Below are positions 3,320-21,658 of a stretch of 28,773 bases of DNA, one piece after another (the stretch's first letter is position 1; every line of letters starts with the position of its first letter). Under the pieces are notes generated by a model. It ran no database searches. It had not been told where the DNA came from and saw nothing but the letters and a program-made list of their open reading frames with translations. The stretch spans positions 1 through 28,773 of the IMG/VR virus record IMGVR_UViG_3300008263_000027. One strand, given 5' to 3'. This DNA comes from a virus. The translations under genes were made by a program, and so were the position numbers.

Positions 3320-5664
3320 CCTGCTTGTATTATTTGTATGTATTGCGTTGTTGTTGATCCATCGTAGTTTTCAAGTACCATTGGAATGTTGTAAACCAGT
3401 TCTCTTCCCTCCTCGTTCACTAATCCACTTCCACCTTCAGTAATTAAATTGTCTCCTTCCTCTGTTATAAGCTGATAAATCAAATTTGTATTCTCTGGGA
3501 TCTCGATTTGAATTGTGGCATCCTCAAAGAACTCGGTTTGAGAAATAGAAGTCACTCCTGTTCCTGTGATGTCAATTGTTATTCGATAAGTACCGTTTGG
3601 AACAGCAACATAAGTATTGATGAGTGCTACACCACCTACTCCAACTTGACCTGCAATACTTCTGGTTGGTCCAAGTGGTCTGAAGTCATTTATCAATGTA
3701 AACTCCACCTCTCCACTTGTAAGGTCCGATTTCATCTCGTTTATAATGTACCTTTTGTCTCGGATCACGAGTCGGTCATTTAAACGCAGAGAGGTCAGTA
3801 TCGTTATCGGCAAGTTTGCCTTGACATACGTCAGTCTGTTCTTCTGGTTGAAGAGGTTAACAATATAATTAAAGTAATACGTTTCGTACAATCCGTTGTT
3901 GATTGGAGTGTTCCAAAGTGTGGATGTTTCTGCACCCCAGTTCAAAGAATAATCAACACCATCTACTTGTAGATCCTGCCCGAAAGCCATGTATTGGTTT
4001 AATCCATCGACAGTTGTTCCATTATCTAGATACCATGTATTTGTGCTGATACCTCCAAATTTATACAGCAAAATTGGTTTAGGAACATACGGTTTAAACT
4101 CTGGTCCTGTCCCCAATGCATAACCTACCTGGATGTCCTCGTTTTCAAATCTGTTAAATAGCAAGTTTTCAAATGGCACTTCAATCGTGTACTCTTCTCC
4201 ATCGTATGGGTAGGAATAATCCAAGTCACCGTACTGCCTATTGAAAAACTGTTTGAATTGCTGATTCATGAAAGACAGCGACTCTTGGTATTTGAACTTG
4301 ATGGTCCTGTATAGTTTTATTCGCTCCACATCGATGTTCTCCACTATGGTGTGTTGAGTGATGTCGATAATTTGACCTTTCTGATACCACTCTTCCAATG
4401 GCTCGACTTGGTAAACGTTCTCCGATATTCCGTAGCAAGTTAAATTACATTCTTTGAGCACTCCTGCGAAAAAGTCAGCCACTTTCATGTCTGGCATCAA
4501 ATCCGAAAGGTTAACATAAGCCATCGCTGTTTGATTGGCATTTGTTATTGAATAATCGGGAAGAGTGACAGGGATGTATGCTATTAAACCTGTGAAATAA
4601 CTGTTGATTATTGAGTCGAATGTTAAAGTGCTTTGTGCTCGCAATACCAAATAAATGGTATTATCAATTCCTGCACTATTATTGTCCGTTATAATGTTGT
4701 ACGTTGCGTTTCCAATCCCCTCAATAGTATTGTTTAATGTTCCATTTATATAGACATCAATCCAATAGGAAAGAGAAGTATTTGAAACACCAGAAATAAC
4801 GATGTCAATAAAATGCTGAACGGGTGGATTGAGTAATGTGGGTTGAGTGATGTATCGAATGGTGTTTGCTGCCAAATCAACTGTGACGTAATCAACAGCT
4901 CCTGGATCCCAAAAAGTGACCGAGTCAAAATCAATAGGTGTAGCTTGAGAAGTGAATTGTGGAACTTCTGCTTTTTTCAACCATAGGTATGCTGCTGCAA
5001 ATCGTGGGTCCGATAAAAACGTACCTTGGAAATCAACCCCATACGTATTTTGAATAACTCCGAATATATTTCGTACTCGGTAGGCAGGTAGAAGTTCATC
5101 GTAAACGATAGCACCAGCAGATGTGTCGATGTTGTCGGCAGGAGTTGATGGGTTGTCCCATTGCCATACTCGTTGACTTGAAATCAAAGGGTAGCATACG
5201 GCATAATCCGTTGCAGTATCCTCAATGCGAAGTTGCACCTCACTCCCAATGTACTCATGACTGTCTGCTGAATAATCCAGGATTGAAAGTTTATCTTCTC
5301 CAAACTTATCTTTTAATGCGAGGACATCTCCATAAAATGTGACGGTGTAATTTTCAACTTTTCCATTTTTTATGTTTGATTTCTCAAGTTGGATTTTACC
5401 TCTACGGAATGATGTTAAGTCAATTTCAATGTAGGCATCTCTTCGGAGATTATGGTTAATTGTTCCATCGTAGTCCGTATTGTAAAAGTGCTGGAATATC
5501 TGGTTGTTATTTTCGGAAGCAGGAACTGTAAAGCTCTGCGAGAAGTCCGTGAACACCTTTGAAATATCAGCAATATTCTGAACTGATGAATTGACGTTAA
5601 TCTTTTCATCGTTAAATAATTCTAGTCGATTGCCCTCAACATAAATCTGTACGTTTCTTTTCAT
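3316..5664 (-). CDS. Large baseplate or distal-tail-like structural protein
   Basis: A 782-residue protein of a type I know from Bacteroidota phages and prophages, with the conserved start RNVQIYVEGNRLELFNDE and, near residues 36-60, the pattern DISKVFTDFSQSFTVPAS. No transmembrane segment or enzymatic motif is visible. The middle is rich in aromatic residues (Y, W, F) and beta-strand patterns. The C-terminal 100 residues contain two similar phrases (LITEEGDNLITEGGSGLVNEEG) that look like a short repeated beta domain. It is coupled to the 356-residue upstream gene by TAATG and followed by the 56-codon gene. Size, composition and position suggest a baseplate hub or distal tail component; this is inferred, not shown by a catalytic or binding motif. 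Confidence 0.8.
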   Translation of the reverse strand: MKRNVQIYVEGNRLELFNDEKINVNSSVQNIADISKVFTDFSQSFTVPASENNNQIFQHFYNTDYDGTINHNLRRDAYIEIDLTSFRRGKIQLEKSNIKNGKVENYTVTFYGDVLALKDKFGEDKLSILDYSADSHEYIGSEVQLRIEDTATDYAVCYPLISSQRVWQWDNPSTPADNIDTSAGAIVYDELLPAYRVRNIFGVIQNTYGVDFQGTFLSDPRFAAAYLWLKKAEVPQFTSQATPIDFDSVTFWDPGAVDYVTVDLAANTIRYITQPTLLNPPVQHFIDIVISGVSNTSLSYWIDVYINGTLNNTIEGIGNATYNIITDNNSAGIDNTIYLVLRAQSTLTFDSIINSYFTGLIAYIPVTLPDYSITNANQTAMAYVNLSDLMPDMKVADFFAGVLKECNLTCYGISENVYQVEPLEEWYQKGQIIDITQHTIVENIDVERIKLYRTIKFKYQESLSFMNQQFKQFFNRQYGDLDYSYPYDGEEYTIEVPFENLLFNRFENEDIQVGYALGTGPEFKPYVPKPILLYKFGGISTNTWYLDNGTTVDGLNQYMAFGQDLQVDGVDYSLNWGAETSTLWNTPINNGLYETYYFNYIVNLFNQKNRLTYVKANLPITILTSLRLNDRLVIRDKRYIINEMKSDLTSGEVEFTLINDFRPLGPTRSIAGQVGVGGVALINTYVAVPNGTYRITIDITGTGVTSISQTEFFEDATIQIEIPENTNLIYQLITEEGDNLITEGGSGLVNEEGRELVYNIPMVLENYDGSTTTQYIQIIQAG

Positions 5665-6734: not shown

Positions 6735-7272
6735 TTTGTTTAAAGTTTTCTTTCATTATTCCGTTTAATAGTTTTTGCATGTCGAGTGAGTATGCTTCCA
6801 TAAATTCTGTAGGTAAACGATCCAGGGCTGCTTGGAAAGGTTTTGTAAAAAACAGCGATGGTCTCATTCCTTTGTGGTAAATTGACCGAGTGATTAAAAA
6901 CGCAGTGGATTTATAAGTGAGCATTTTACCTGTCTCCTTATCTCTGAATTTTATACCACGTTGCCTTACCCATTTATTTATTCCTTTCGTTAATCCACCC
7001 TTTTTACCTGTTCCAGATCCAAAGCGAAATGGAGAACTTGGTGCTTTGCTACCACTTGTCTTTCCTTTCACTCCTTGGTCTTGATACCATCCATAGTCCT
7101 CCATGCTGAATGATAAACGAATGGAGTTAGGGTAAGCTATCAACTCCCCATCAATGGATCCATACAAAGTCTTGGTGTTGTTCTTTGTCAATCGTGTTAA
7201 ATTACTCCTGGATTGCTGAATTACATACTTGCGTAGTCCATCCAGCATCTTTTGTGTCTCCTCTTGTTTCAT
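6724..7272 (-). CDS. HK97 gp10-like neck or tail-completion protein
   Basis: A 182-residue basic protein. I chose the ATG at 7272, which overlaps the previous stop as TGATG, over two in-frame TTG codons just upstream. The central part (DYGWYQDQGVKGK, about 60-72) and the later IYHKGMRPSLFFTKPF (about 132-147) resemble the HK97 gp10 / lambda gpZ group, in which a chain with a conserved aromatic and Pro-rich end helps finish the tail or join it to the head. The position after the terminase and chaperone-like genes and before the large tail genes agrees. No enzymatic motif is present. The assignment is moderate because this family is recognised mainly by pattern and position. Confidence 0.72.
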   Translation of the reverse strand: MKQEETQKMLDGLRKYVIQQSRSNLTRLTKNNTKTLYGSIDGELIAYPNSIRLSFSMEDYGWYQDQGVKGKTSGSKAPSSPFRFGSGTGKKGGLTKGINKWVRQRGIKFRDKETGKMLTYKSTAFLITRSIYHKGMRPSLFFTKPFQAALDRLPTEFMEAYSLDMQKLLNGIMKENFKQNGK

Positions 7273-7724
7273 CAACAAATCGACATTTCGTTTGGAAGTA
7301 TAATATCAAGTGTCATTGCCCATCCAGCTAGGTAGTTTTCAAACCGTTCTGTAAATGGCTCGCAGGTAGCATTGCCGACAATCTCCAAACGGTCATTGAG
7401 TTCTCCTCTGCGTAAAAGCTCTGCGACACGAATGAGAATAATCCCAGTGGTATTTAATACCTCTTGCTCGTTATCGTTTCCTTTGAATTTGTCCTCGGTT
7501 TGGCTCTTGCTTATATCTACCACATCCATTGATAAAATGGTGACGTTAAATCGAAGAATATTGGCTTCTGGTGACATGTTGTTTACCATGATGTGTACCA
7601 AGGGGAAGAGAGTCTGTTTATAATTGTCAATATCGTCAATGCTTCCTGTGGATACGGTAGTGACAAGTGGAATGTCCTCAAAGGCAGTTCGCAAGGTGTC
7701 GATTAGGTATGTGTATGCTTTCAT
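7272..7724 (-). CDS. Conserved tail protein, possible tail terminator
   Basis: A 150-residue protein starting ATG at 7724. The start overlaps, as ATGA, the stop of the minus-one frame of the upstream chaperone-like gene, so translation is probably coupled to that frame. Features are an N-terminal helix (residues 1-15), a segment YKQTLFPLVHIMVN (about 35-48), and the ending PFTERFENYLAGWAMTLDIILPNE, which is conserved among Bacteroidota phage proteins I have seen. The size and mixed alpha/beta pattern would suit a gpU-like tail terminator that stops tube growth and contacts the head, but no decisive motif shows this. Confidence 0.7.
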   Translation of the reverse strand: MKAYTYLIDTLRTAFEDIPLVTTVSTGSIDDIDNYKQTLFPLVHIMVNNMSPEANILRFNVTILSMDVVDISKSQTEDKFKGNDNEQEVLNTTGIILIRVAELLRRGELNDRLEIVGNATCEPFTERFENYLAGWAMTLDIILPNEMSIC

Positions 7725-7999
7725 ATTTTAGCTCGTCTTCTGATTTCGTTTATTTCAATTCTTGTTTTTTCCTTTTCAAAGGTTAGGAATGTGAGTGCAT
7801 GATGAATGGGAAGTTTAGTGACTTCATCGAACTTTGTAACATCTCCTTTTGCAGCTGCATAAATTGATGAATACCAACCCCATCTTTGTCCAAATTGAGC
7901 TCGTTCGCTATAATCGTCAACTCCTCCTTGGTCATCTCCTTCATCTGCTCCTGCAAAAAGCTCATTGTACCGTCTAACAAGTCCATTCCTAAACTCCAA
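7721..7999 (-). CDS. Minus-one frame extension of tail chaperone-like gene (lambda G-T-like)
   Basis: A 92-codon frame that begins at a TTG inside the nine-T tract, not at a proper start codon, and overlaps the C-terminal part of the 7783-8490 gene. It has strong coding character: RWGWYSSIYAAAKGDVTKFDEV followed by a helical, charged end, a pattern I know from Bacteroidota tail regions. Its TGA stop overlaps the next gene's ATG as ATGA, whereas the zero-frame stop leaves a 58-base gap. A minus-one slip at 7998-8006 would fuse it to residues 1-164 of the upstream frame and give a product of about 256 residues. This matches the G/GT principle of tail assembly chaperones, in which the long form recruits the tape measure. 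A missing T in the assembly would also explain it. Confidence 0.75.
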   Translation of the reverse strand: MEFRNGLVRRYNELFAGADEGDDQGGVDDYSERAQFGQRWGWYSSIYAAAKGDVTKFDEVTKLPIHHALTFLTFEKEKTRIEINEIRRRAKI

Positions 8000-8490
8000 A
8001 AAAAAACATTCGCAGAGATGGCTACACTCAAAGGCATGGCTTTCATGACCTCTGCATAATTTATGCTTGACTCATACTCCTCAATTGAGTACCGTTCTCC
8101 TTTCGTTTTAATGATTGGTCGATATAATACTGCCATTGCGTTGTTCATCGTCTGCCAATCACTCATGTATTTCTCAGCATCCATGTACTCCCCCCAGCTC
8201 ATGTTTTCCAATGCAGGAATAAATCCGAACTCCTTACTTCCAAGTTTGAAACGATGGATTAAAGTCTGCTCGTAATTTTCGAACATTTTATTAAACTTCT
8301 CGATGAGTTCCAGGATCGAGTTTCTTTCGATTTTAACTACTGCTGATAATGGTATTTTGCAAAGCACCGAAATCATCTTACGTGCCTGCGTGTCTTCATC
8401 ATCCTTTGGAGACGATATTTTCATGAGGTACTGGTACTGCTCAAGAGTAATCTCGGACAGCGATGTGGGAATGTATAGTTTGGCTTCCAT
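7783..8490 (-). CDS. Tail assembly chaperone-like protein (zero-frame product)
   Basis: A 235-residue, largely helical protein starting ATG at 8490. Residues 1-160 carry no enzyme motif. The segment IPALENMSWGEYMDAEKYMSDW (about 91-112) and the Ala-rich AMPLSVAISANVFFW (about 151-165) are the clearest landmarks. Codons 162-165 (GTT TTT TTT TGG) form the slippery tract. Without slippage translation continues through a Met- and Gln-rich helical tail (EMTKEELTIIANELNLDKDG) to the stop at 7783. The gene follows the terminase and precedes tail completion genes and the tape measure, where chaperone pairs are expected. The presence of two open frames over 217 bases is the main reason for the chaperone call. 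Confidence 0.75.
   Translation of the reverse strand: MEAKLYIPTSLSEITLEQYQYLMKISSPKDDEDTQARKMISVLCKIPLSAVVKIERNSILELIEKFNKMFENYEQTLIHRFKLGSKEFGFIPALENMSWGEYMDAEKYMSDWQTMNNAMAVLYRPIIKTKGERYSIEEYESSINYAEVMKAMPLSVAISANVFFWSLGMDLLDGTMSFLQEQMKEMTKEELTIIANELNLDKDGVGIHQFMQLQKEMLQSSMKSLNFPFIMHSHS
7997..8007 (-). other. Putative programmed minus-one frameshift site
   Basis: On the minus strand the sequence reads G followed by nine T and then GG. In the zero frame this is GTT TTT TTT TGG. Slipping back one base gives GTT TTT TTT TTG GAG and enters the open frame ending at 7721. T-runs of this kind allow full re-pairing of Phe tRNA after a slip, and also allow polymerase slippage. I did not find an obvious strong downstream stem-loop by eye. 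A homopolymer error in the assembly is the main alternative. Confidence 0.65.
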
Positions 8491-8618: not shown

Positions 8619-9761
8619 TTATCTAACGTGATATTTTCCTCTGTTTGGATTGCTGACTGCCATGTAGATAAAATATCTGGCTGCATCAATACAGTGATTC
8701 CACTCGTCCTTTGGAATGCTCTTGTTCGTTTTCTCAACCCATGAATAATTGTTGAATTCTCTAATCATGTTTGTAGAGTCTTTGTCGAGCACTATCTGAT
8801 ATTCACTCATTAAAGAAATACCTGCTGTGACACTTCCTGCACCTTTCTCGGCTTCCATAATATTCAAACCTCGCTGTCGAAGTTCCGAAATCAATCTTGG
8901 CTCTGCACTATCTCCAATGACAAGCATACGGTCTGCGTGCTGCTTTGTGTATTGATATAGCTGTCCTGTGTTCAATCCCTGCTCATAAAAGCACTCCTTC
9001 AAGTATATTATCTTCTCCTTGCGTTTAATCGAGACTTTGATTAACGTGGATGGATCGTTTGAGAATCCGTAGTCCTGTCCGAAACCTACAATGTCTCCAT
9101 CGATATATTCGCCAATGCTCCAATTGGAGAAGATTGCACCCGTTGGTTGTGCTCTGTGACCTACCCCATAAACTTTCCACCAATAGGCATTTGTTATTTT
9201 GCTTTCGATGTCGGCAACCTGTGCTTTCGTTAAATGGGGGTTGTCCTTATACGTGGTTATCAGAGGTGGGTACTTATCGATGTAATTGTCTAACCAGTGC
9301 TCCTGGGGGAGAGCAGGATTATAATCTGCAATCACTCGGTATCTCGTTCTTGGAAATAGCTGGTCGATTGTCTCTTCTGGAAATTGATGTGCCTCGTTAA
9401 TCCACAAAATATCTCTTGAGCGACCATGTATCTTATCTGGATTGTCTGCTCCATAATAAGAGATGTAGTTACCAAACAAAGTGTAGATGTGGTCCGTCTT
9501 GTTGTGGTTTTCATCCCTGTATAAATCATGCTTTATAAGGATGTCTTTAAAGTCCTTCCACGCAGTCGATTTCAGTGCTGTGTACGTATCTCGGCACATA
9601 TCGATTTCCATTCCTGCGTTTTCATACTCCTTACAAAGCCACAGGATGTAATAAGCCACACTGTAAGTCTTCCCACTACGAGTTCCACCCTGCAACAAGG
9701 TCACTCGATTTTGGGGAACGGATTGTTTAAGGAATAAAAAGTTAGGATTGGCTTTCTCCAT
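8619..9761 (-). CDS. terL: Terminase large subunit
   Basis: A 380-residue protein that should translocate DNA into the prohead and cut it. The ATPase domain has Walker A GGTRSGKT (residues 25-32) and a Walker B region ILWINEA (118-124), where the usual Asp before Glu is Asn; the same substitution occurs in other phage terminases. ADYNP (145-149) fits the coupling motif. The C-terminal nuclease domain shows D230 in FGQDYGFSNDP, D284 in VIGDSAEP and a late Asp in CIDAARYF, the usual three acidic metal ligands. I chose the ATG at 9761 over the GTG codon just before it. The start overlaps the end of the small-subunit candidate by 20 bases, which suggests coupled translation. Confidence 0.93.
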   Translation of the reverse strand: MEKANPNFLFLKQSVPQNRVTLLQGGTRSGKTYSVAYYILWLCKEYENAGMEIDMCRDTYTALKSTAWKDFKDILIKHDLYRDENHNKTDHIYTLFGNYISYYGADNPDKIHGRSRDILWINEAHQFPEETIDQLFPRTRYRVIADYNPALPQEHWLDNYIDKYPPLITTYKDNPHLTKAQVADIESKITNAYWWKVYGVGHRAQPTGAIFSNWSIGEYIDGDIVGFGQDYGFSNDPSTLIKVSIKRKEKIIYLKECFYEQGLNTGQLYQYTKQHADRMLVIGDSAEPRLISELRQRGLNIMEAEKGAGSVTAGISLMSEYQIVLDKDSTNMIREFNNYSWVEKTNKSIPKDEWNHCIDAARYFIYMAVSNPNRGKYHVR

Positions 9762-10074
9762 CACTCAACCATTCGGGTAGATTGCTTTCGATGTTTTTCT
9801 GTTCAATCTGTTGAAGAGGTGCACCGTAACCAGAGTCCATAAGTGCCTTGTATGCGTTGACGTCACCCTCCCTTGCCCTTTTGATTAAAGCAAGAGTCAT
9901 AAGGTCTTCCTGCGACATTCTTTCGACTTCGCTTGTCAGTGGGTTTTTTAGATCCTGTTCGACTTCCAACCACTTCTTTGCAATGGTACTTCTGTTCTTT
10001 AATCCTTTAGGGTAACCTTTCGGGTTTCCACTGACTCCCTTGGGGAAGGGTTTTAAGTTCTGCTCGTTTGCCAT
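9742..10074 (-). CDS. Probable terminase small subunit (DUF5681-like)
   Basis: A 110-residue basic protein starting MANEQNLKPFPKGVSGNPKG. The N-terminal segment KPFPKGVSGNPKGYPKG is the signature of the DUF5681 group, often found next to terminase large subunits. A helical region follows (residues 40-90), with ALIKRAREGDVNAYKALMDSGYG typical of the family's conserved core. Its 3' end overlaps the large subunit start. A role in recognising packaging sites is inferred from location and family habit; no clear helix-turn-helix is visible by eye. Confidence 0.78.
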   Translation of the reverse strand: MANEQNLKPFPKGVSGNPKGYPKGLKNRSTIAKKWLEVEQDLKNPLTSEVERMSQEDLMTLALIKRAREGDVNAYKALMDSGYGAPLQQIEQKNIESNLPEWLSDGESQS

Positions 10075-10092
10075 GTCATTGATATTTCACTG

Positions 10093-10254
10093 TTATTTCT
10101 CCTTTTCACTTTCAGATTTAATCATCTCTTTTGTGGCTAGGAAGTATGCCTTTCGTCTGCTCTTGATGTTCTTGTTGTAAGTGAAACATTTACCGTTTTC
10201 ACCGTATTTGAATCCATCCTTTCCGTTGAAGCTACAATGTATAATCTTCTCCAT
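10093..10254 (-). CDS. Small basic protein between methyltransferase and terminase genes
   Basis: A 53-residue ORF starting MEKIIHCSFNGKDGFKYG, overlapping the methyltransferase end by 23 bases and ending 18 bases before the terminase small subunit. It is lysine-rich with two cysteines (C7 and C23). The first half looks like a beta-strand pattern around FKYGENGKCFTY; the second half is a charged helix. No family is recognised. The overlap and spacing fit a real gene that fills the gap exactly; a role near DNA modification or packaging is only a guess from position. Confidence 0.68.
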   Translation of the reverse strand: MEKIIHCSFNGKDGFKYGENGKCFTYNKNIKSRRKAYFLATKEMIKSESEKEK

Positions 10255-11413
10255 TCTTTTTGACTTTGAGGTCTGGATTCATTTTAATTATTCGTTCTAT
10301 AATAACTTGACAATAACGAGGATCAAATTCAATTATTCTGGCTTTTCTATTTAACTGTTCACAAGCTATCATTGTTGTCCCACTTCCACCAAATGCATCT
10401 ATAACAATATCTCCTTGTTTAGAAGAGTTCTCTATCTGATAAGCAAACAGTCCGATTGGTTTCATTGTAGGATGTTCTCCATTTCTGTTTGGTCTATCAA
10501 ATTCAATAATCGTTGTTTGCTTTCTATCTGAATACCATTTATGACTATCTCCTTTTAACCATCCGTATAAGCAAGGTTCGTGTTTCCATTGGTAATCTTG
10601 TCTTCCCATTACCATTGAATTTTTAACCCAAATAAGCTGTTGTTTTAATAACCATCCAGCATCAACCATTGCTTTACCAAAATTAATAACTTCAGAAGAT
10701 GCGTGCCAAACATAAATTGCACCACCTTTTTTAACTGAGGTTGAAAGTGCTGTATAGAAATCATAAAGAAACTTATAAAAATCATCATTACTCATTGAGT
10801 CATTTTCAATTGTTAACTTTTCTTTTGTTCCACCTTCATATGCGACATTATATGGTGGATCAGTAACAACCATATCAGCTAATTCTCCTTGCATTAACTT
10901 TTCAAATGTATCCGTTTGAGTACTATCTCCACAAAGCAATCGATGTTCTCCTATTTCAAATAAGTCTCCTAATACAATATCCGTTTTAATACCACCCTCT
11001 GGCACATCGAAGTCATCCTCTTCGGCTTCCAAAACTTTAACCGATAAATCAACAGGTAGGTCCAACCCCCAATTTTCCAAGTCCTCGGTGTTCCATTCGT
11101 TTGCGAGAATGTCCCAGTCCCATTCCCCAAATCCAACATTGTCCTTGATAATGAATTCTTGTTTTTGTTCCTCTGTAAGCTCTTCTGCTTTGATAATGTA
11201 TACTTCCGTTAATCCAGCTTCTTTACACGCAGCAAATCGCATGTTTCCACCCAATATAACCATCTCTTCATCGACTACAATAGGTCGAAGCTTTAACATT
11301 TGTGGAAACTCCTTAATGGACTGTACTAATTTTTTAAACTTGGCATCCTTTATTGTTCTTGGATTGCTCGTGTTTGGCTTGATTGCCGATAATTTTACTA
11401 ACTCTGCCTGCAT
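10232..11413 (-). CDS. ParB-like domain fused to DNA adenine/cytosine-N4 methyltransferase
   Basis: A 393-residue protein. Residues 1-95 form a ParB/sulfiredoxin-like domain with ILGGNMRFAACK (53-64) as its core. Residues about 145-393 form an amino-methyltransferase: DPPYNV at 185-190 is the catalytic motif IV and DAFGGSGTT at 339-347 the AdoMet-binding motif I. This order (IV before I) is that of beta-class enzymes. A TRD-like region lies between them (about 240-300). The fusion is common in phages and should methylate phage DNA against host restriction. The methyltransferase part is clearly AT-richer (15 G/C in 10741-10800) than the ParB part (29 in 11041-11100), which suggests a replaced domain. 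No partner restriction enzyme is seen. Confidence 0.92.
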   Translation of the reverse strand: MQAELVKLSAIKPNTSNPRTIKDAKFKKLVQSIKEFPQMLKLRPIVVDEEMVILGGNMRFAACKEAGLTEVYIIKAEELTEEQKQEFIIKDNVGFGEWDWDILANEWNTEDLENWGLDLPVDLSVKVLEAEEDDFDVPEGGIKTDIVLGDLFEIGEHRLLCGDSTQTDTFEKLMQGELADMVVTDPPYNVAYEGGTKEKLTIENDSMSNDDFYKFLYDFYTALSTSVKKGGAIYVWHASSEVINFGKAMVDAGWLLKQQLIWVKNSMVMGRQDYQWKHEPCLYGWLKGDSHKWYSDRKQTTIIEFDRPNRNGEHPTMKPIGLFAYQIENSSKQGDIVIDAFGGSGTTMIACEQLNRKARIIEFDPRYCQVIIERIIKMNPDLKVKKNGEDYTL

Positions 11414-21232: not shown

Positions 21233-21658
21233 CTATTTTTTTTTATCTTCTTCTTGTCTTGCTCGCTGTACAAATATAACGAAACTCGCCCACAGGTTTT
21301 TGCCTGTAACAGCGAAGTAACTTTCATTGATGGATTTACCCTCCGTCATCAAACAAAACAACGTGAATGCCTTTGTGAGGATGAATTGAATATTTGTATA
21401 CTGTTCACATAATCCTTTCAGCACAAATATCTCTGCTAGAAATATCATTACAATACCTCCAACATAAAGCAGAGTTTTGGTGATGGTGTCCGACAATCTC
21501 CTGGATCTAACTGCTCGCCATCCAAAAAGACGAACGGTCTTCCATAATCCAAAATAAAGGTCGAGAATGATAGCTCCGAAAGCCAACAATACAAATGGCA
21601 CAATGGGAGTGAATATCGTAAGCAAAGAGATGGAAAGTGCTAAAATATACGTTCTCAT
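21233..21658 (-). CDS. Holin (phage holin 4 family-like)
   Basis: A 141-residue membrane protein with three to four hydrophobic stretches: residues 4-33, about 61-80, and a weaker one near 90-108. Between the first two lies DLYFGLWKTVRLFGWRAVRSRRLSDTITK (about 32-60), which has the D...G, basic and SRRL pattern of the TcdE/phage-holin-4 family. The C-terminus is charged (RARQEEDKKK), as in holins. It is followed two bases later by the endolysin and overlaps the upstream gene by four bases. It would form membrane lesions that release the endolysin. Confidence 0.85.
   Translation of the reverse strand: MRTYILALSISLLTIFTPIVPFVLLAFGAIILDLYFGLWKTVRLFGWRAVRSRRLSDTITKTLLYVGGIVMIFLAEIFVLKGLCEQYTNIQFILTKAFTLFCLMTEGKSINESYFAVTGKNLWASFVIFVQRARQEEDKKK

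Follow-up and report, generated by a model that had tools for sequence, protein, structure and literature searches.

The gene directly behind the terminase large subunit gene in this phage sequence is open in two overlapping frames that meet at a run of nine Ts, which raises the question of whether it yields two products through a programmed change of frame and, if so, whether the ribosome or the RNA polymerase makes that change. The window, that is, the whole stretch of DNA analysed here, is a linear virus record of 28,773 bases. Its relevant features are as follows, with codon phase written as the number of Ts before the first full TTT codon, within full TTT codons, and after them.

7998..8006, minus strand: slip site, nine Ts in the sense strand (GTT TTT TTT TGG) at codon 162, codon phase 2+6+1
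8490..7783, minus strand: zero-frame ORF of 235 codons, directly after the terminase large subunit gene
7999..8490, minus strand: common N-terminal (G-like) domain, residues 1-164 (to VFF), present in both products
7783..7998, minus strand: C-terminal tail that the unshifted product gains by staying in the zero frame, 71 residues and a stop codon; the T domain overlaps it in a different frame
7721..7999, minus strand: T-like domain, read in frame -1, that ends the shifted product; 92 residues and a stop codon, counted from the TTG at 7999
7989..7991, minus strand: TAG in the third (+1) frame, soon 3' of the T run, which would end the products of transcripts lacking one U or carrying two extra Us
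7272..7724, minus strand: next gene of the cassette, 150 aa, phrog_30964
8619..9764, minus strand: terminase large subunit, directly upstream of the slip gene, in the same order as in phage P12024L
1237..3162, minus strand: tail length tape measure protein, matching PHROG tape measure families (best E 2.9e-16)

At the slip site the sense (minus) strand reads GCG AAT GTT TTT TTT TGG AGT TTA, corresponding to exactly nine As on the plus strand (7998-8006). The zero-frame and -1 ORFs share 217 bases (7783-7999), the TGA stop of the -1 frame (7723-7721) and the start codon ATG of the next gene (7724) share bases in ATGA, and 164 plus 92 residues give a fusion of 256 residues. Re-reading of the sequence bore out the initial annotation in its coordinates, the size of the overlap, the zero-frame end at 7783, the ATGA junction, the exact count of nine Ts (8006-7998) and the arithmetic leading to about 256 residues. 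It had also stated that the -1 frame starts only inside the T run; the first start-like codon, a TTG that is often TTA in relatives, does lie there, although no stop interrupts the frame over the roughly 22 codons that precede the run. The -1 frame contains the conserved motifs F-R and WGWY, and the T-like domain is predicted to be helical.

Five genes lie between the slip gene and the tape measure gene, which are not directly adjacent, in agreement with the earlier remark that the gene lies several genes upstream of the tape measure, unlike in lambda; P12024L shows a similar spacing as far as gp50. The window contains further A/T runs of nine at 21236, 25560, 26160 and 27175; one, an A9 in the sense strand, ends gene 21658..21233 and the remaining three lie between listed genes, the slip-site run being apparently the only sense T9 within coding sequence. 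Elsewhere in the window, an ORF of 393 aa (10232-11413, minus strand) looks, on visual inspection, like a fusion of a ParB-like N-terminus and a DNA methyltransferase bearing a DPPY motif.

Relatives of the gene and conservation of both frames

We collected 450 loci with a complete upstream domain from four sorts of search, using each frame of the window, upstream-domain alignments led by different members, P12024L-type members, and bacterial genomes. The T domain was readable in 446 of them, the other four lying on contigs cut off inside the gene or shortly past it, and in all 446 it lies in frame -1 relative to the upstream domain. Because different searches retrieved some of the same contigs, the count to use is that of the 339 distinct sequences, in which the run comprises nine (290) or ten (49) Ts, never fewer or more. 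Part of the loci had been drawn with the peptide FFLEFRNG, a possible selection bias; searches that used G-domain patterns located upstream of the run, and so were blind to it, led to the same result. The run is not due to chance, because at least nine Ts are found at the site in 132 of 132 representatives, whereas some 632 kb of sequence flanking it contain 13 such runs. The comparison of homologues that the initial annotation had called for thus found both the T run and the two frames conserved, with no relative showing an in-frame fusion and none, apart from contigs cut at their end, having only one frame. One close relative (IMGVR_UViG_3300021574_000015, 4001-4668) matches the window at 99-100% identity in the first part of the gene and has lost about 70 bases near the gene end, a deletion that cuts short both the T domain and the zero-frame tail and is either a real variant or an assembly fault.

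Tblastn searches of isolate phages with family members matched only P12024L and P12024S, isolated on Persicivirga/Nonlabens, which share the gene and its place after the terminase. In P12024L the homologous G domain (34% identity), the T9 site and the -1 T domain could be read directly, and P12024S matches in both frames by tblastn. The genome collection held only five confirmed loci, all in metagenome-assembled genomes (MAGs), and one of 395 genomes of the bacterial phylum contained a copy; accurate isolate genomes are therefore limited to these two phages. From the isolates and the MAGs holding copies, the hosts of the phage family are probably Bacteroidota. The P12024L gene (NC_018272.1 / JQ823123.1, 23946-24640; positions 3998-4692 of our extracted locus) is annotated as two hypothetical proteins, gp40 and gp41, without a frameshift, and the annotated start of gp41 is too late and misses the conserved beginning of the T domain. 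We propose that gp40 and gp41 should be treated as one gene with a frame transition, current annotations of such phages, including P12024L and P12024S, missing the fusion protein. The zero-frame tail of P12024L is only 25 codons long, differing in this from the window gene, and tails in the P12024 group are short in general (25 and 16 codons), indicating that this tail is not universal. Gp10 of Flavobacterium phage 6H, a distant structural relative of the common domain, has no T9. In phage 6H (NC_021867.1, 10352-10047), a gap of 300 bases behind gp10 contains an ORF of about 95 codons in frame -1 that is not annotated; we saw no clear slip site linking it to gp10.

In most members the unshifted frame continues for 55-100 codons past the run, making this stretch dual-coding. 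We replaced the codons of the T frame by synonymous ones in 59 representatives; only 5% of the recoded trials left the zero frame open for at least 50 codons, compared with 97% of the representatives as they occur in nature. Likewise, in moderately divergent pairs the zero-frame residues of the overlap score 1.51 BLOSUM units per column compared with 0.79 after recoding, while an upstream control region, where the off-frame is noncoding, gives 0.75 and 0.67 in the same test. Judged by these sequence comparisons, both frames are under selection, and the two results together suggest that the unshifted product with its zero-frame tail and the shifted product with its T domain are both likely functional. 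With 60 codons read in two frames, the overlap would be a clear example of dual coding in a DNA phage. As for the third frame, 54 of the 59 representatives have a stop within two codons of the run, TAG or TAA in the motif TTTA(G/A); this may be a safety stop for transcripts with one U fewer or two more, or a mere by-product of dual coding. Together, the -1 relation in 446 of 446 relatives, the T9 or T10 run and the selection on both frames strongly support the initial proposal of a programmed -1 transition joining two domains of one gene, and a programmed frame transition of some kind is close to certain.

Run length, codon phase and the slipping step

The T run occurs in six codon phases (2+6+1, 2+6+2, 0+9+1, 1+9+0, 0+9+0 and 1+6+2), always with a total of nine or ten Ts, and the residues at the run change with the phase (e.g. 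VFFW, VFFL, VFFFY, SFFFH, MFFFL and SFFL). Every relative has the heptamer T TTT TTT (U UUU UUU in the transcript) in phase, most commonly with one flanking T before and one after it. We counted 15 changes of phase class on the tree, including three losses of a T to the right and two to the left of the heptamer; a T lost on one side was always accompanied by a gain on the other, and the total was still at least nine each time. If the flanks varied independently, 4.3-8.1 representatives would be expected to have runs shorter than nine, and none was seen. Permutation gave P values of 5e-5 with clusters at 60% identity and below 5e-5 with finer clusters, values that are optimistic given the incomplete independence of the representatives; the sounder count is that of the five losses seen on the tree. 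Upstream of the run, phenylalanine codons are TTT or TTC at 380 : 158, and within the site only TTT is found. Conservation follows the total length of the run and not the heptamer.

No downstream RNA structure of the stem-loop kind was apparent in 60-base windows at 18 offsets in 98 representatives, the mean z being about 0 (-0.02 to 0.31), and only 16 of the 98 had upstream Shine-Dalgarno (SD)-like words. With z near 0 everywhere and such words so rare, we rejected a stem-loop and an SD motif as ribosomal stimulators.

We consider RNA-polymerase slippage to be, on balance, the more likely step producing the shift, because the length is kept whatever the phase, there is no downstream structure and SD-like motifs are rare, and also because the usual single-base insertion gives -1, the frame of every relative. 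Most transcripts would carry U9 and direct the 235-residue product with the zero-frame tail. On the A9 template the polymerase would slip, mostly adding one U, at a run whose weak rU:dA hybrid would be about as long as the RNA-DNA hybrid; that weakness would be the reason for a run of T rather than A. Standard translation of the transcripts with one extra U would then continue in frame -1 and yield the product with the T-like domain, of 256 residues or, depending on how the inserted base is read, of 257 with an extra Phe. Published data are available for several of these elements: slippage is efficient in vivo on runs of nine A or T, and the RNA-DNA hybrid of Thermus polymerase is 9-10 bp (PMC5009743); slips at A/T runs mostly insert a single base (PMC5574713); and bacterial genomes show selection against transcriptional slippage at length nine (PMC1088944).

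The main competitor, possible though the less likely of the two, is a programmed -1 ribosomal frameshift at U UUU UUU, where the P- and A-site tRNA-Phe would re-pair one base back as in lambda G/GT. It agrees with the in-frame heptamer present in every relative and with the -1 frame common to all of them. To our knowledge, all described tail-chaperone recoding is ribosomal, which also counts against the polymerase. In lambda the ratio of products is about 30:1. Known tail chaperones work by ribosomal frameshift (PMC5009743), and the bacterial transcriptional sites studied slip at 15-55% (PMC4256274), well above the lambda ratio, a further point against polymerase slippage. The phase argument for the polymerase draws on few independent losses, about five on the tree. 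Yet seven phased Ts suffice for the ribosome, which would leave the flanking Ts constrained by nothing but the amino acids encoded, and none of the 339 distinct sequences has seven or eight; the overall number of Ts beyond the heptamer is maintained through phase changes, and neither a downstream structure nor more than a few SD-like words accompany the site. The ribosomal slip at GTT TTT TTT TGG favoured by the initial annotation is accordingly the less supported part of its proposal, and its aside on transcript slippage fares better, given a length of nine or ten whatever the phase and the lack of a stimulator. As the heptamer is part of any T9, both mechanisms could also act.

Two separate overlapping genes, the second with its own start through an internal start or translational coupling, would agree with the annotation of gp40 and gp41 in P12024L. 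Against this, 88 of 98 representatives lack an ATG or GTG in the first 30 codons of the -1 frame, only 30 of 98 have a TTG among its first six codons, and conservation of the -1 sequence sets in within the run (FF-x-x-F-R), a beginning that the annotated gp41 start cuts off; an independent start of the T domain thus looks unlikely from the codons present. Homopolymers are generally error-prone and ten Ts would give one ORF, so that a sequencing or assembly error, or a decayed pseudogene, has to be considered, as does phase variation by replication slippage, with T9 and T10, both found in the family, switching the gene between two versions. Both ideas are left with a negligible probability and can therefore be dismissed, since all 446 loci keep the -1 relation, including T10 runs with an adjusted codon phase, the separately sequenced isolates P12024L and P12024S have the same site, and there is no in-frame copy, which a switch would predict.

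Protein identity and comparison with known systems

The cassette, the two-product design and weak family and fold matches make the slip gene a probable tail assembly chaperone; the initial annotation as a tail chaperone thus holds as a likely function. Neither frame matches Pfam. PHROG 166 ('tail protein') matches residues 11-72 of the window protein (E 0.0024) and is matched by five of 14 family members (best 6.5e-5). The model of the G domain (residues 1-161) has a mean pLDDT of 91, and Foldseek found no match to it in the PDB with E <0.001. Its comparison with the HK97 tail assembly chaperone (2OB9) gave Z 3.5 over 67 residues with 8% identity, second in a tied list with unrelated chains; this weak structural match, over residues 1-71 of the model, is no proof of a common fold. 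Good matches in the search of viral models were limited to uncharacterised phage proteins; one BFVD 'tail assembly chaperone protein' matched at E 0.01. The T domain gave a model of modest confidence (pLDDT 71) and no fold match.

As to function, and apart from any claim of homology, the slip gene would work like lambda G/GT: by analogy with gpG and gpGT, binding of the tape measure protein would fall to the common part and recruitment of the tail tube protein to the T part, with the ratio of the two products depending on how often the slip occurs. The furthest-reaching interpretation, to which we assign a probability of nearly 0.6, is that a widespread phage family sets the ratio of its chaperone isoforms by polymerase slippage on T9 or T10, with a conserved dual-coding overlap and both C-termini functional. 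If true, it would be a separate, transcriptional solution to a stoichiometry problem that lambda solves on the ribosome, and the phase-independent conservation of T9-T10 suggests that evolution can fix the same protein ratio at transcription. The family also supplies natural sequences for telling both mechanisms apart directly.

Frameshifting in tail chaperones is the textbook example of programmed ribosomal slippage in phages, and a two-product tail chaperone made through a frame transition is known already. Our literature search, which covered few subscription journals, found no description of phase-independent T9/T10 conservation, of a long dual-coding tail or of the mechanism that we consider probable, transcriptional slippage, in tail chaperones, nor any account of chaperone frameshifting in Bacteroidota phages. 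As in lambda gpG/gpGT, the two products share an N-terminal domain, the longer one arises when the frame shifts by -1 shortly before the first frame ends, and the gene belongs to a tail gene cassette upstream of the tape measure. Unlike lambda, which has a fixed heptamer, the family shows a T9-T10 homopolymer of constant length and variable codon phase, a long dual-coding unshifted tail (55-100 codons in most members), a position separated from the tape measure by five genes and a slip that is probably transcriptional.

Programmed transcriptional slippage on A/T runs is known from dnaX of Thermus thermophilus, from mxiE, spa13, spa33 and mxiA of Shigella and from tssM1 of Citrobacter. The site described here has at least about nine uninterrupted A/T and keeps its length irrespective of phase, both of which characterise transcriptional slippage. 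It resembles those genes in having a run of at least nine A/T in coding sequence, no ribosomal stimulator and two products with a meaningful ratio, and it differs from them in its sense-strand Ts, its place in a phage structural cassette and its dual-coding overlap conserved throughout the family.
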